Assembly: GCA_030425385.1 (NCBI GenBank)
Contig: JAUIAH010000006.1
Span: forward strand, 1-64,000
DNA length: 64,000 nucleotides
Direction: 5' to 3'
From: Verrucomicrobiia bacterium
Lineage (GTDB): Bacteria; Verrucomicrobiota; Verrucomicrobiia; Verrucomicrobiales; DEV007
How positions within the stretch are numbered: the stretch's first letter is position 1; every line of letters begins with the position of its first letter. This document shows positions 229 to 38,234 of the stretch, piece by piece. The notes beneath the pieces are model-generated. The model had not been told where the DNA came from, made no database searches, and worked only from the letters and a program-made list of their open reading frames with translations. The position numbers and the translations under genes are program-made.

Positions 229-1075
229 GTGCGCCGAGCAAAGCGAGGCGCTTCTTATATGGTGGAAGTCCATATGCTATAAACCCTAGCCAGGAGTAAC
301 TACCGAGTGTTGCGTACATGTTAGCTAAGTCGTTAAAAATCGCGGACGGTCGCCGCGTGACCAAGACCTTGAACACCGGAAGCCGCTCCCTACAGGAGTC
401 AGAGCCGGACGGCGGAACAGCATGGACGAAGCGTACACAGGGAAGTGAGCAGGCCGTAGGGAGAATCGCACCCTCCCGAGGATTGAAACAGCCCCGTAAA
501 TGCGAGATGTGTGAAGCCGACCCTGTAACGTCAAGGGGAAGGCAGCATCCTCCCATCCGCTTTGGCAAGGATGAGAGGGTTCCACCGGGGTCGCGTAAGA
601 TCGTGGCATGTTCACAAAGAAGCGAATACAGATGACCGAAGGAGCACCGGAAAAGCCCACTTCGGCACCTCGAACTCGGGACGCCTCCCGGCCCAGCCTG
701 CTCTATTACAAGCAGGACTCTAACGCTCAACGAAAGGAAGACGATAGAGTGCCATCGGAGGAATCAGACCCATCCATAGTAGTCCGAGACGGTCGGGCCG
801 ATCACATGGCGAAGGGATGGGCAGAAGGCCAACGCCGCCACAGCACTCACGCGAGGGAGACGAATGCTCACGATACGAGTGTCAAGCACCCTGCTTGCAT
901 TAGGGCAAGGAGCTGCGAAGCTATTGGCGGCAACCGCAACCGAGCCGAGTGCGCGTCTCTGCAGGTGGGCGATATACTCTCGATACTGATGCGCACTGGA
1001 GCATCTCCCGGACATCAGGCGTCTTTAAGGATCTATTACCAATCGAGATGTGAAGGCAAAAGCTGAGGTGCACTC
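229..1075 (+). mobile_element. 5' part of a second, truncated group II intron
   Basis: The segment opens with GTGCGCC at 229, the canonical start of bacterial group II introns, and continues with intron-like blocks (CCCTAGCCAGGAG near 285, GAAGCGTACACAGGGAAGTGAGCAGGCC split across 428-455). This is the usual order of domains I to III ahead of an ORF in domain IV. The ORF that follows (608-1066) is short, and no domain V/VI is found before 1140, so the element looks cut off at about 1075. It is a fragment and probably not mobile. Family assignment would need a covariance-model search. Confidence 0.55.
608..1066 (+). pseudogene. Remnant of the N-terminal part of an intron-encoded protein
   Basis: This 152-codon frame starts where the maturase/reverse transcriptase of a group II intron normally starts, about 380 nt from the intron 5' end. 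Its first residues (MTEGAPEKPTSAPRTRD) have the Gly/Pro/Thr-rich look of such leaders. None of the reverse transcriptase blocks is present: no YADD, no palm or finger motifs, in this or the other forward frames up to 1140. It is therefore read as a 3'-truncated gene. It could also be untranslated intron RNA that happens to stay open. Confidence 0.35.
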
Positions 1076-32424: not shown

Positions 32425-35400
32425 TCATTTCGGCGTCGGCTCGACTTGTTGGGTCGTTCGGAGATACTTCACGAGCGCTAACACTTCAGCATCAGTTAAG
32501 GTGCCGAAGAGTCCTTCGGGCATCATGGAAACGGGCACGGTTTCTCGGGATTGAATGCTTGATTTGGCCAGGACAGCGGGGTCTTGACCTACCAGACGCA
32601 GGGTCACTTGCCGATCGTCTTCATTGGCAACATTGCCAGAGTAGGTCCGTCCGTCCCGTGTGGTGATGATCACCATCTGGTAGCCTTCGGGAATCTCGCT
32701 GCTCGGCTCGATCACATTGCTGAGGATGTAGTCGAGATTGGCCCGGTTGGATCCCGTGATATCGGGACCGATCTCGCCTCCTTCACCATACATCTTGTGA
32801 CAGGCGGCACAGGTGCGGTCAAAGATGGCGCGCCCGTGAGCGGCGTCCGCCTTAGCCACGGCGTCATCGTGGAGCAAAGTCCGATATTTGGCGTAGGCGG
32901 CTGCTTTGTCCGAACTCAGTGCATCAATCGGTCCCCACACTTCGACAAACCCATTGCCGACCACGCGTCGCAACTGCCGGGCGACATAGGCGGGAACATC
33001 GCGTTTGGGAACCTTGTTCGCTTTCAAGGCTTCGGTGAGGGCCCAGCCAGATTTCGGCCGAGCCGCCAAGGTTTGCACGGCGTCGAGCTTGGCCTCCGTG
33101 GAAAAGCTTTCATAGCGCGCTAACAAAGCGCGAGGAAAGCTCTCGTCCTCATAGCTCGCCATGGCGCGAATGGCCTCGCGCTGCATGGTATCCTGGTCTA
33201 GCAATGAAATTAAGAGCGCTTTCGCTTCAGGGCGGCGCTGGGCCACCAGGCCACGGAGGGCTTCCATGCGTGCGGCGGGATCGAGGGAGGCATCCTGCAG
33301 GCGGTCGAGCATGGCCTGAGCCGCGCTGGTATCGCCGAATTGTTGGGCGAGGGCTAACGCCGCTTGGACGACGTCTTTCTGAGAATGGACGCGGAGTTGG
33401 TCGTATGTCGCGGCCCAGGAGGGCGGTGCGGAGGCATCATCGCGCCCTTCCAGGCCATCACGCATGCCTTCGAGGAGACCAAGAAGATTCTGGGAGGATG
33501 TCATTTGTCCTAACCCTTTGGCGAGTGGCTCAAGGGCATTCGCATCGGCAAGTCGACGTGCGATGAAACGATGGACGAGAGATAGTTCACTCGTGGCCGC
33601 GAGCGCCATGGCCCGTTCGGGATTCTGAGGGACGAGAGGCTCAACGCCGAACCAGATCATCTTGGGGATATTGTGATCGTTCTCATCTTCGCCACGTTGG
33701 ACGAGGGCTTCTACCAGAGCCCACTGATCTTCACGATTTGGCAAACGTTGCAAGGCAGCGGCCAAATAGAGCCGTACCACCGCGGAAGGATCCTTGGCAG
33801 CCATCTCGACGAAGCGCTCGATCGCGGTGGACGGAGCTGCGCGATCCTCACAAAGCAATTGCACGGACCACGCGCGCAAATGAGGATCGTCGTGAGCTAA
33901 CAGAGCGATCAAGTCACTCTCTTGCAAACCGCCCGTGACATGGAGAGCCCACAAGGCGCGCAATTGATAGTCGCCATTCTCGTGCGATTGAAGGATGGCT
34001 TTCAGCGCTTGGGTGGCTTCTGCCGGGAGCCCACCTTGCGCATGCGCTCGCTGTTGGAGAAGCACGCGCGCTCGGCGGGCATGCCAGGCGCTTTTGCTCA
34101 GTTGTAGCTCGATTAGGGCTTCATTATCCATCGCTGCCAAGTCGTCATAGCGGCCTTCCCAATCGACGGCCTGCGATTCCTTGGGCGTGACTCGAAAGAC
34201 GCGGCCGGTGTCTTTGTTGAGCACTTCCTTTCCGCAGATATCAGCATCATGCCAATCCAAGGCGTAAAGGTCTCCTCCGGGACCGATTTCCATGCTGAAG
34301 CCGATCCACTGTGCGTTGTTCGCATGGAGGAAATCTTCGCCATCCCGTCCGATGAAGCCCGAGCCGCTAGGGTCTAACACATCTGTCAGAATGGCGTGTT
34401 CGTGGATGTTACACATGAAGATCCGTCCATGCTGATTCTCAGGAAAGGCATCGGACAGGTAAACCCGTGCGCCACCATGGGCAGACCGATGCCGGTGATC
34501 GGCGATGGTGCGGATATCCTGATACACGTAGGGATTGAAATGGCGTCCTCCCTGGCGGTGATAGATGCCGCCAGGAATCACGTGCCAAAGGTGGGGAATG
34601 ACACACGCCGTGATAAAGATCTGCCCTTTGGCATCGTAGTCGATTCCCCAGGGATTACTGAAACCGTGGGCGACGACTTCGAAGCGATCCTTTGTGGGAT
34701 GATAGCGCCAGACGCCGCCGTTGATGTGCACACCTTCTGCGTCTAACAGGTCTGCAGGAAAGTCTTCGCCATGTTTGTAGAGGCGCCCCTTGCCCTTGGG
34801 TTTGCGGACGACGGAAGGCGTGGCGTAACCCTGACATCCATACAGCCAACCATCGGGTCCCCAGTGGAAACTGTTGAGCGTCTCGTGGCGATCACGAATG
34901 CCCCAGCCCGTGAGGCGGATCTCGATATCCTCCATCTCGGCGCGATCATCGTGATTCCGGTCGGGGACGAAGAGGAGATTGGGCGGAGCGCCTAACCAAA
35001 GCCCATCGAAGCCCACGGCTATCCCAGCGGGGAAGGGGATGCCCTCAAGGAAGATCTTCTTGCGGTCCGCCACTCCGTCCCGATCCGTATCCTCAAGGAT
35101 GGCAATGCGGCTATCGCCGGAATTGGCAAAGCCCGAGCCGCGGGTTTCGTAGTCGCGATTCTCTGCAATCCAGAGCCGCCCGCGATCATCCCAACAGAAG
35201 GCCATGGGCTGGGTGATCATGGGTTCTGACGCAAACACATTCACCTTGTAGTTCTCATTCAGTGTCATGGCCTCGACAGCCTTTTCCGGAGTGAGAAACT
35301 CGGCTTCGCGACCCTCACGTTGCGCGAGACCCCAGAGTGCGTAGGTGCCTCCCTGACCGCTGTAATGACCCCATTGCTGGGTCAAGGCGACGTCGTCGAG

Positions 35401-36234
35401 CTTGCCTGTGTAGGCAATGAGACGGTGTTTGAAGGTCTTGGTTTCCCCCGCCGGAATCGACCAATCGCCAAGACGAGCACGCGCCGGTCCCACCCCGAAT
35501 TGGTCATCAACTCGCCACGGCTGAGGGAAGCCGTCGTTGTCTGAGTGATCAAAGATGGCGATATGGGCAAGGTCATCGCGACCGGGCACTTGCAAACCCA
35601 CATCCAACCACATGGCTCGTTTGCCTTCGGCCTTGCTTCCACGATTTCGTGCCGCATTGACGATCTCTCCAGGCATCTCTGGAGCCCACGGCATGCGAAG
35701 GAAGAGCCCACCGTAGTCATACTTGCTGATGGTGATATCCGTCTCTGCTTTGCCTTCCCAGATGAGGTCCAGGGTGTAGCGATCGCCATGGTCCTCAAAG
35801 GTCCAGGTCTGGGTTTCCGTCAGGACCGTCGACCCGTCTTCAGCCAGTAAGGCATAAACGGTGCGCCAGGATGCGGTGTTGTCTGAAGCGTCCTCAGCCT
35901 TGGCCTCATCGAAAGCCATTCGTTTCCAATGGGTGCCTTCGGGATGATGAAAGTAGTCGCGCCCATTCAATCGCGTGAAGCCCCAGTAAAGGCCGGTTTG
36001 ATGGGGATGATGGCCGGGGCTGTGTTCGGTGAGGGCTCCCTTTCCATCAGGTGCCAGAATGGGATGAATGTAAGGTCTGAAATCGGCTCGCGCGTGCTGG
36101 GTGAGGATAGGCGTTTCCTCACCCTTTCGCGTGATGGTCATGGTGTCCGCGCCAAAGTCACTGATGAGTTGCGCCTGGAGAAGGGGAATTCCAAGGCTGA
36201 GAAGGGAAAGAGCCACCCGCAAATGTCGTTTCAT
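32425..36234 (-). CDS. Secreted DUF6807/PmoA-like / PVC-type dehydrogenase / HEAT / cytochrome c fusion
   Basis: A 1269-residue protein with a signal peptide (MKRHLRVALSLLSLGIPLLQAQ). Residues 25-310 are a DUF6807/PmoA-type beta domain (HHPHQTGLYWGFTRLNG, YDYGGLFLRMPW). From about 330 to 790 is the PVC-type dehydrogenase propeller (ENYKVNVFASEPMITQP, WIAENRDYE). HEAT-like repeats follow, and the C-terminus is a heme c domain with CAACH at 1142-1146 and a possible Met ligand in VPVSMMPEG. The start at 36234 is preferred because it begins the signal peptide. Same overall plan as the protein at 1814 but with a different front domain, so substrate targeting may differ. Convergent with the giant surface gene. 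Confidence 0.9.
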   Translation of the reverse strand: MKRHLRVALSLLSLGIPLLQAQLISDFGADTMTITRKGEETPILTQHARADFRPYIHPILAPDGKGALTEHSPGHHPHQTGLYWGFTRLNGRDYFHHPEGTHWKRMAFDEAKAEDASDNTASWRTVYALLAEDGSTVLTETQTWTFEDHGDRYTLDLIWEGKAETDITISKYDYGGLFLRMPWAPEMPGEIVNAARNRGSKAEGKRAMWLDVGLQVPGRDDLAHIAIFDHSDNDGFPQPWRVDDQFGVGPARARLGDWSIPAGETKTFKHRLIAYTGKLDDVALTQQWGHYSGQGGTYALWGLAQREGREAEFLTPEKAVEAMTLNENYKVNVFASEPMITQPMAFCWDDRGRLWIAENRDYETRGSGFANSGDSRIAILEDTDRDGVADRKKIFLEGIPFPAGIAVGFDGLWLGAPPNLLFVPDRNHDDRAEMEDIEIRLTGWGIRDRHETLNSFHWGPDGWLYGCQGYATPSVVRKPKGKGRLYKHGEDFPADLLDAEGVHINGGVWRYHPTKDRFEVVAHGFSNPWGIDYDAKGQIFITACVIPHLWHVIPGGIYHRQGGRHFNPYVYQDIRTIADHRHRSAHGGARVYLSDAFPENQHGRIFMCNIHEHAILTDVLDPSGSGFIGRDGEDFLHANNAQWIGFSMEIGPGGDLYALDWHDADICGKEVLNKDTGRVFRVTPKESQAVDWEGRYDDLAAMDNEALIELQLSKSAWHARRARVLLQQRAHAQGGLPAEATQALKAILQSHENGDYQLRALWALHVTGGLQESDLIALLAHDDPHLRAWSVQLLCEDRAAPSTAIERFVEMAAKDPSAVVRLYLAAALQRLPNREDQWALVEALVQRGEDENDHNIPKMIWFGVEPLVPQNPERAMALAATSELSLVHRFIARRLADANALEPLAKGLGQMTSSQNLLGLLEGMRDGLEGRDDASAPPSWAATYDQLRVHSQKDVVQAALALAQQFGDTSAAQAMLDRLQDASLDPAARMEALRGLVAQRRPEAKALLISLLDQDTMQREAIRAMASYEDESFPRALLARYESFSTEAKLDAVQTLAARPKSGWALTEALKANKVPKRDVPAYVARQLRRVVGNGFVEVWGPIDALSSDKAAAYAKYRTLLHDDAVAKADAAHGRAIFDRTCAACHKMYGEGGEIGPDITGSNRANLDYILSNVIEPSSEIPEGYQMVIITTRDGRTYSGNVANEDDRQVTLRLVGQDPAVLAKSSIQSRETVPVSMMPEGLFGTLTDAEVLALVKYLRTTQQVEPTPK

Positions 36235-36295
36235 GACTGCGGGATAGCATGCGCAGGCATTGACTTTCAAGGTGGATTGTCGGAATGGATAGGGA

Positions 36296-36904
36296 ATGAA
36301 GCCGCCAAACGCCGCCCGCAGAGTTTCCAGGAGCGCCAAGAAGCGGAGTGGCCGTGGTCCCGATCACGTGGCGCGCCTTTCCAAACTGGTGGCGGTGGAT
36401 GAACCTTTCGAGCCAGCGACGGATGAGGCTTGGGATCGCTTGGAGCGCATGCTCCGGACCAAATTTCCTTCCAGCCATCGCCGCCTCTTGAAGCGCTTCG
36501 GCACCGGCGTGTTTGGTGGGCGCTTGCTCTATCTCAACCCGGCTGCCGAGCAGGATTGGCGATCGGAATACAGCGCTCGTTGGGCCCATGGAGTCGCAAG
36601 TATGTTAGGAGGAGCTTTTCCTGAGCTCGACTTCAATCTCACGGATGATGGCTTGCTCCCGTTCGCCATGACGGGTGAGAGCGTCTACCTGTGCTTTGAT
36701 CGGACAGATCCAATGCCTTCACACTGGACGGTGCGCATCTGTTCGCTCCCTGACAAATGGACAAAACCGACCTCCCTCACGTCGGCGGCCCTCCTCTGCG
36801 ATCTCGCAGGAGAGGAAAGCGTCCTGCCCAAGGCGGCGAGCATGCGCCTCTGGCGACCAGGCCAACCTGTCTTCGAAGCAAGTTCCTACCTCATTCATCA
36901 TTGA
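36296..36904 (+). CDS. SMI1/KNR4 (SUKH)-like protein
   Basis: A 202-residue protein whose core (about 40-160) looks like the SUKH/SMI1-KNR4 fold: an N-terminal helix with WDRLERMLRTKFPSSHRRLL and the glycine-containing turn KRFGTGVFGGRLLYL, then acidic strands. SUKH proteins often serve as immunity proteins to contact-dependent toxins, but many have unrelated roles and no toxin is seen next to this gene. The first 30 residues are basic. Its last 14 bp overlap the convergent selenoprotein-like gene. The fold call is tentative. Confidence 0.6.
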   Translation: MKPPNAARRVSRSAKKRSGRGPDHVARLSKLVAVDEPFEPATDEAWDRLERMLRTKFPSSHRRLLKRFGTGVFGGRLLYLNPAAEQDWRSEYSARWAHGVASMLGGAFPELDFNLTDDGLLPFAMTGESVYLCFDRTDPMPSHWTVRICSLPDKWTKPTSLTSAALLCDLAGEESVLPKAASMRLWRPGQPVFEASSYLIHH

Positions 36905-38234
36905 GCGGAATCGAGATCGGCTGCCGCAGGAAGAGGCATTGTCCGTCAGTATCTTCGCACACGTAGTAGTAGGCACTGCCCTTGATCGCCTTCGAAGTGG
37001 CTTCTCCTTTCTTGGGACGCCATTCGAACTCGATGTGTCGCGTCTCTTCCGAGGCGATGAGATCCTTGGGAGGCGATGAGACGTGGAGGTCGCCAAGCGC
37101 CACTCCGTCCGTATCGAAGACCCAATGCAAGGGCCCGGCGTCGTTCGTCCAATGCACCTTGCGCAAGGCATCTGGAGTGAGGCGAATGTGCACCCGGAAA
37201 GCAGGTGAATCTTTCTGAGTCGATGGCACCTTGGTCGTGACGACACGGATCATCTTGGTCTCATCGATCGGGACCTTACCAAGCGGGTCCGGGTGCTCTC
37301 CGACTGCCATCGCTTCAGACGGCCCTTTCTGTGGCGTGGCAAACTCGGCCCCGCTGGGTTCGGCCCGAAGCGGGTGAGGGGTCTCTCCGCGAGCGCGCAG
37401 ATCACGACGTGCCTCATGGACCCAATCGTAGAAGGCGTAGGGTTTGTCTAAACGAGGACCATATTGCTGAATGCGCCGCCGCCAGATATACTGCGCCGGA
37501 TCCAGGGAGAGCGCCTGTTTCCACGCGTGAATCGCTCGCGAGAAATCCTCGGGATGGCGTTTGGGAGAATCAAACCGTTGACGGTAGGCGACTCCCAGCC
37601 GAAACGCTGCGGTGCTATCCTCGGGATAGGCCGCCACGCGAGCCTCGAAGGCAGCGATCGCGCCATCAAGCCTGTCATCCGTCCCCCAAAGGATCTGCCC
37701 TTCTGGCGATGTTCGCTGGGGAAAAGGTTCCGAGGATGAGGCGTCACCTTCAGGATAATCCGTCTCAAGGAAGGCCTGGAGCTCGTTGTCCTTGGGATTC
37801 ACGTAACGGACGATCCCGTGGGGATCGATCAGGAGGCTGTAAGGAATTGCCTTGCACCCTAACAGATTCGACGAGTCTAACAAGACGGGCCATTCCATCC
37901 CTTGCCACTGCATGAAGAGCCGAGTGCGATCGGGATGTTGCTCTTCGGCTATACCGAAGACGGCGAGTTGCTTCTGCTCCACGAGTTCTTTCGTCTTGGC
38001 GTGCCACCCGGGCACGTGCTTGCGGCAGCCCGCTCACCAGGAGGCGAAGAGGTGCAAGAGTACCTTCTGCCCATGATAGCGCTCGATAGAGAAACCGTCC
38101 TGCCCATCAATGGTGGGCAGTTGAAGTGTCGGAAACGCCTTACCGATCTCCCAGGGGGCCGCTGACAGACGAGGGGCGGCGAGAGTCATGGAGAGGAGGG
38201 CGACGAGTAAGAACGCTTGGGACGGAAGCCTCAT
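36891..38234 (-). CDS. Candidate selenoprotein: secreted thioredoxin-like/TPR protein with in-frame TGA at the redox motif
   Basis: Two open frames (38234-38037 and 38033-36891) lie in the same frame, separated only by a TGA at 38034-38036. Read through, they give one 447-residue protein. Its signal peptide is MRLPSQAFLLVALLSMTLAA; a TlpA-like thioredoxin fold follows. The TGA falls exactly on the first redox Cys: LFASW-(TGA)-AGC-RKHVPGW, where TlpA family proteins have WCxxC. Downstream parts align with the fold (GIAEEQHPDRTR, AIPYSLLIDPHGIVRYVN). A TPR-like region (about 190-290) and a C-terminal beta domain with a Cys pair (VCEDTDGQCLF) follow. Expected function is periplasmic thiol-disulfide chemistry. 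Alternatives: nonsense mutation or sequencing error. selA/selB/selC are not in the window. Confidence 0.7.
38000..38036 (-). promoter_or_regulatory. Candidate bacterial SECIS hairpin with its TGA
   Basis: On the mRNA strand, the TGA (38034-38036) is followed after 17 nt by a perfect 6-bp stem, CGTGCC (38016-38011) with GGCACG (38005-38000), closing a 5-nt loop CGGGT. The loop begins 23 nt after the TGA and has G at its second position, as bacterial SECIS elements require. It lies within the coding sequence, as bacterial SECIS do. The stem is short and GC-rich, so chance is not excluded. Confidence 0.5.

Follow-up and report, generated by a model that had tools for sequence, protein, structure and literature searches.

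A gene on the minus strand of the window (the whole stretch of 64,000 nucleotides that was analysed) very probably encodes a redox protein whose first active-site residue is selenocysteine (Sec); from the sequence evidence, we put the probability of this reading at about 0.9. The frame from 38234 to 36891 runs from an ATG at 38234 to a terminal TGA at 36893-36891, specifies 447 amino acids, and contains a single internal TGA, which occupies the first redox (Cys) position of a thioredoxin motif (FASW-TGA-A-G-C). A preliminary description of this DNA had placed one TGA on the first Cys position of a WCxxC motif, with the frame open on both sides, and had proposed a Sec-x-x-Cys reading. Its coordinates are right, the gene lying on the minus strand, and the reading is supported by the Sec machinery of the genome, by the conservation of the TGA in every orthologue checked, and by a covarying hairpin. 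The features of the gene are as follows.

36891..38234, minus strand: selenoprotein gene, with the TGA read as Sec at residue 67 (frame, translation, and 61 orthologues with the same internal TGA)
38157..38234, minus strand: predicted N-terminal signal peptide, residues about 1-26, ending ...LSA-AP (read by eye; predicted helix 4-18; hydrophobic N-termini of the orthologues)
37800..38147, minus strand: AhpC-TSA / ResA-TlpA-like thioredoxin-fold domain, residues 30-145 (PF00578, E 6.8e-12; ResA/CcmG-type structures, VIA Z 11-12)
38034..38036, minus strand: Sec TGA codon, first residue of the redox motif U-A-G-C (TGA in 61 of 61 checked orthologues)
38000..38016, minus strand: SECIS hairpin, stem 38016-38011 with 38005-38000, 5-nt loop 38010-38006 (CGGGU, G second)
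37389..37692, minus strand: helical TPR-like middle region (weak PF13432 match; model helices; near-invariant QYIWRRRIQQYGPRLDKPYxFYDWV)
36894..37295, minus strand: C-terminal Ig-like domain resembling nDsbD/ScsB, with Cys426 and Cys433 as a C-x6-C pair (AlphaFold2, Foldseek, and VIA)

Homologues were searched for in 142 relatives, in 388 genomes of the phylum, in GTDB contigs, in 200 relatives of a Phycisphaerae carrier, and in 392 genomes of the phylum of that carrier. Across the Verrucomicrobiota and Planctomycetota, the family aligns over its whole length, and the codon is TGA in all 61 distinct orthologues checked (three batches of 14, 18, and 29); 12 further matches, outside these 61, were also reported with one TGA. 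The conservation of thioredoxin sequence on either side of the TGA, already pointed out in the preliminary description, is borne out by the orthologues, in which the protein remains conserved far beyond the TGA, for example in the near-invariant stretch of the middle region listed above. The motif U-A/V/Q-G-C is present in all orthologues, within a near-fixed FASWUxGCR signature; in other words, an in-frame UGA at a redox-active position is conserved across species. The terminal stops of the orthologous genes vary among TAA, TAG, and TGA, and the internal TGA is therefore not merely a preferred stop. An ORF caller that uses the standard code reports the gene as two short ORFs, and members of the family can therefore readily escape notice. 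Of the 392 planctomycete genomes, which were drawn evenly, 42 have the gene, so that it is not rare there.

The host genome (8.0 Mb in 74 contigs, Verrucomicrobiota) contains SelA, SelB, tRNA-Sec, and SelD together, all on contigs other than that of the window. SelA lies on contig C55 (8.2e-147 with the full model, PF03841 domain intact), SelB on C32 (658 amino acids, full-length, with C-terminal winged-helix matches), and tRNA-Sec on C41 (65 bits, above the gathering score; called by ARAGORN as tRNA-SeC with the anticodon TCA). SelD, encoded on C23 (G000:C23:120876-121799), is a selenoprotein too, with an in-frame TGA in SLSKTCG-U-AAKID, at the site known for Sec in SelD proteins. The preliminary description had seen no selA, selB, or selC in the window, which is correct, the only tRNA genes found there by ARAGORN being those for tRNA-Met and tRNA-Val. 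It had also proposed a search of the genome for selA to selD and had named a lack of Sec machinery, or unrelated residues in the homologues, as findings that would speak against Sec; all four components were found, and the 61 orthologues keep the TGA. Among the 142 relatives, SelA is present in all eight carriers of the gene (as a fragment only in G009) and in 63 genomes altogether, an association with p of about 0.001 in a hypergeometric test based on a hand count and uncorrected for kinship. Six of seven further carriers also have SelA, which makes 14 of 15 in total; SelA was not found in the remaining carrier, G500, a 2.8-Mb MAG that is probably incomplete.

The hairpin begins 17 nt past the TGA and consists of a 6-bp stem (CGUGCC/GGCACG) with the loop CGGGU; stem, loop, and spacing are as the preliminary description had given them. 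The two strands of the window together contain 2339 TGA triplets, and just 33 of them (1.4%) are followed, within the same zone, by any Watson-Crick hairpin of 6 bp; in a simple scan, the TGA at 38036-38034 is the only one of these with a frame open for 50 codons upstream and 80 downstream. The combination of TGA and hairpin is more than chance. Since the folding stability of the hairpin is not unusual for its composition (z 0.09), its support is positional and comparative, not energetic; a search of Rfam at gathering thresholds gave no entry at the hairpin. In an alignment of 14 sequences, 98.8% of the stem cells pair, and in one of 32 sequences there are 13 compensatory cells; in the latter set, none of 500 shuffles matched the observed percentage paired, compensatory count, or covariation score. 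When 60 distinct hairpins are compared, all 300 cells of the five inner pairs are paired (the shuffle maximum was 286), and slid registers pair in 22-64%. The second stem pair is seen as GC, CG, GU, UG, and AU, and the fourth as GC, GU, AU, CG, and UA. The outermost, sixth pair is formed in 45 of the 60 and broken in 15, so only five pairs are general. The loop always has 5 nt, with G in the second and U in the fifth position (60/60).

Because the stem lies within the coding sequence, residues 74 and 78 change jointly, the codon of the latter pairing with that of the former in every case: GTG-CAC (V,H), CTG-CAG (L,Q), GTC-GAC (V,D), GTT-AAC (V,N), and ATA-TAT (I,Y). The third codon positions are variable in the loop, and those in the stem are altered only together with their partners, a pattern that coding constraint alone would not predict. 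The codon of V74 is GTG in 14 of 14 sequences and is the most constrained of the 137 codons testable for synonymous conservation. The hairpin has the layout of a bacterial SECIS, that is, it lies just downstream of the UGA and carries G among the first two loop bases; judged from these comparisons, it is a bacterial SECIS. An intragenic hairpin that couples two amino acids in this way offers a clean example of an RNA structure constraining a protein sequence.

Could the TGA be something other than a Sec codon? A sequencing error that put TGA where a Cys or Trp codon belongs, or a pseudogene in recent decay, would account for the interruption itself and for nothing more. An error cannot recur in 61 independent genomes, and neither the conserved protein on both sides of the TGA nor the covarying hairpin is what this explanation predicts; we regard it as ruled out, its probability being negligible. 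The TGA might instead be read as Trp, Cys, or another standard residue, through a reassigned codon or a leaky stop, and read-through alone would indeed also yield a full-length protein. However, TGA is an ordinary stop elsewhere in this genome, including at the end of the selenoprotein gene, and the genome has the complete Sec machinery, to which the SECIS and the presence of SelA in nearly all carriers can be added. Reassignment is ruled out by the ordinary stops and the machinery, and reading as a standard residue is on the whole very improbable.

Most selenoprotein families have Cys counterparts. The preliminary description expected Cys (TGC/TGT) in place of TGA in relatives, and this expectation did not hold: Cys occurs at the Sec codon in none of the 61 orthologues, no CxGC form was seen in the two phyla searched, the contig scan reaching close relatives only, and the relatives that lack the TGA have lost the whole motif. 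The latter have SxxC, CEAS, DSES, HAQS, and similar sequences at the Sec site, and have neither the UxGC motif nor the Cys pair of the C-terminal domain. A phylogenetic tree requires at least two changes of state between Sec and no Sec, and two sequences with Ser at the Sec site (L101 and L102) cluster with the Sec-containing L095 with full support. Judged by these comparisons, this looks like a Sec-only family, in which Sec and the partner Cys pair are apparently retained or lost as a unit, in few independent events. With no Cys form in the 61 checked members, the family lends itself well to asking what Sec can do and Cys cannot. It should be mentioned that the planctomycete genome G579 contains both a Sec copy (L099, G579:C1414) and a stop-free paralogue (L088, G579:C1410), in which FSTWSTKS replaces FASWUAGC and the C-terminal Cys pair is absent.

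With its N-terminal signal peptide, the protein would be exported to the periplasm. The thioredoxin domain scores 45.9 bits with the AhpC-TSA model of Pfam (cut-off 26) and is nearest in both sequence and structure to ResA, StoA, CcmG, and TlpA, the superpositions having an rmsd of about 2 A across some 130 residues. The model of the whole protein has a mean pLDDT of 85, and the C-terminal 134 residues modelled alone with AlphaFold2 reach 90.6. For this C-terminal domain, the top Foldseek matches are nDsbD structures, with E values of 1.4e-3 and above, and the top VIA match is the N-terminal domain of ScsB (Z 8.4, with 111 residues superposed at an rmsd of 3.4 A). VIA places the nDsbD-like fold at Z 7-8, level with adaptin ear domains, which have a similar fold. 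These matches are weak; an Ig-like fold is likely, and kinship to nDsbD is suggestive only. A search with 18 members gave no Pfam match of this domain to a DsbD N-terminal family at E up to 1. The C-x5-6-C pair (C113 and C120 of the domain) is invariant, occurring in each of the 30 distinct orthologues whose C-termini are complete. A crude pattern matched a pair in 28 of the 29 later orthologues, although the match in one of them (L152) looks unrelated; the only one without a match (L151) ends in a long low-complexity tail.

We propose the following mechanism. The hairpin 17 nt downstream would recruit SelB-GTP-Sec-tRNASec, and Sec would be inserted at the UGA at 38036-38034. The product would be a periplasmic thiol-disulfide oxidoreductase with a ResA/TlpA-like thioredoxin fold and the active site Sec67-Ala-Gly-Cys70, linked through the TPR helices to the nDsbD-like domain with its pair Cys426/Cys433. 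The selenolate would attack a substrate disulfide or an oxidised thiol, and Cys70 would then resolve the selenenyl-sulfide, with electrons moving between the Sec67-Cys70 and Cys426/Cys433 pairs of one polypeptide. Such an internal relay from selenol to dithiol, whose probability we place a little under one half, is suggested mainly by the stop-free relatives, in which the UxGC motif and the Cys pair are lost together. Comparison of sequences shows the coding of Sec, the SECIS, the machinery, the layout of the domains, and the conservation and joint loss of the two redox pairs; export, the relay, the way in which electrons flow, and the substrate are inferred. A broader reading, held tentatively and at not quite even odds, is that of a Sec-only family of exported redox proteins with several domains, common in the Planctomycetota and scattered in the Verrucomicrobiota. 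Cys would never take the place of the first redox residue, the loss of Sec would go with a joint decay of the UxGC site and of its partner Cys pair, and a single chain would carry electrons from selenol to dithiol, the DsbD-like domain serving as output or input.

Membrane proteins of the CcdA/DsbD type are the usual reductants of ResA, CcmG, and TlpA. The C-terminal Cys pair might be a structural disulfide that exchanges no electrons with the Sec site, and the protein a stand-alone Sec-containing reductase of the TlpA/ResA type, reduced by a separate DsbD/CcdA-like membrane partner. The weak match to the nDsbD fold fits this explanation, which deserves serious consideration even if the odds are against it. 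Against it, a purely structural disulfide does not predict that every complete TGA orthologue in the first set should have the pair and that the pair should be absent where UxGC is lost. It is unlikely that the protein is a peroxiredoxin-like peroxidase, in which the selenolate would reduce peroxides and Cys70 would resolve: the domain does score as AhpC-TSA, and peroxiredoxins such as Bcp and AhpE are among its structural neighbours, but its nearest relatives are the thiol-disulfide proteins named above, and WUxGC stands at the thioredoxin position and not at the PxxxTxxC site of peroxiredoxins.

As regards known selenoproteins, reviews list the PF00578 UxxC proteins as a predicted family (PMC13188914; PMC9312934), described as Prx-like thiol:disulfide oxidoreductases with PF00578 and UxxC/UxxU (PMC13188914 Table 1), and differing Sec sites within one domain have been counted as separate subfamilies (PMC9312934). 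The protein of the window shares with this class the AhpC-TSA thioredoxin fold (above the Pfam cut-off), Sec in a UxxC motif, and a bacterial SECIS, and it belongs to the class as an unnamed, multidomain, apparently Sec-only variant. It differs in the added TPR region and nDsbD-like domain with its own Cys pair, in the FASWUxGCR signature, and in that no Cys version was found. The closest curated model is NF041054 of NCBIfam (“ResA-like WAxxUGC motif-containing protein”), a ResA-like selenoprotein whose match spans the thioredoxin domain only. In its UGC motif, Sec lies two residues before Cys, whereas in the UxGC of the window protein (FASWUAGC) it lies three before. The protein is not a member of NF041054, since it scores 64.4 bits against a cut-off of 300 and lacks the WAxxUGC motif, and no other NCBIfam model reaches its cut-off on it. 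ResA, StoA, CcmG/DsbE, and TlpA have the same fold and the same location of the WCxxC/WUxGC site, but they are Cys enzymes, mostly of a single domain, with no SECIS, TPR, or nDsbD-like domain. With nDsbD/ScsB, the C-terminal domain shares, within the limits of a weak match without Pfam support, a probable Ig-like fold and a C-x5-6-C pair near the end; unlike in DsbD, it follows the thioredoxin-like domain, and the membrane domain of DsbD is absent. The literature found on this family consists only of general reviews and one planctomycete genome paper, with a supplementary selenoprotein table that lay outside the search. Sec insertion is entirely standard here; what is new is the way the domains are combined, the Sec-only pattern, and the coupling between codons.

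The gene neighbourhood gave no functional lead, the neighbours of the orthologues being unrelated (LGT, MatE, peptidase S15, DUF3187, and others). Among the orthologue neighbourhoods compared, one neighbouring gene of the window is kept, in L025 only: a convergent ORF of 202 amino acids (36296-36904, plus strand), which shares its last 14 nt with the 3' end of the selenoprotein gene, has a 62%-identical homologue following the selenoprotein orthologue there. The window also encodes a large protein (32425-36339, minus strand) that combines DUF6807 and DUF7133 with HEAT repeats and, at its C-terminus, a cytochrome c domain, and it contains a match to a group II intron RNA (378-603, plus strand; RF02005, 63.5 bits). 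Other candidate selenoproteins were also seen. Two long open frames in related genomes contain candidate Sec redoxins, VIDFWGDW[TGA]GPCRAMYP (L122, in G003) and VIDFWGTW[TGA]AGCIKAFP (L123, in G006). A third locus (L124, G064:C67) encodes a candidate selenoprotein of the UGC type, YGWASW[TGA]GCRENLPVWQ, and its hairpin, CUGCC-CGUGU-GGCAG, is identical to that of planctomycete members of the selenoprotein family of the window.
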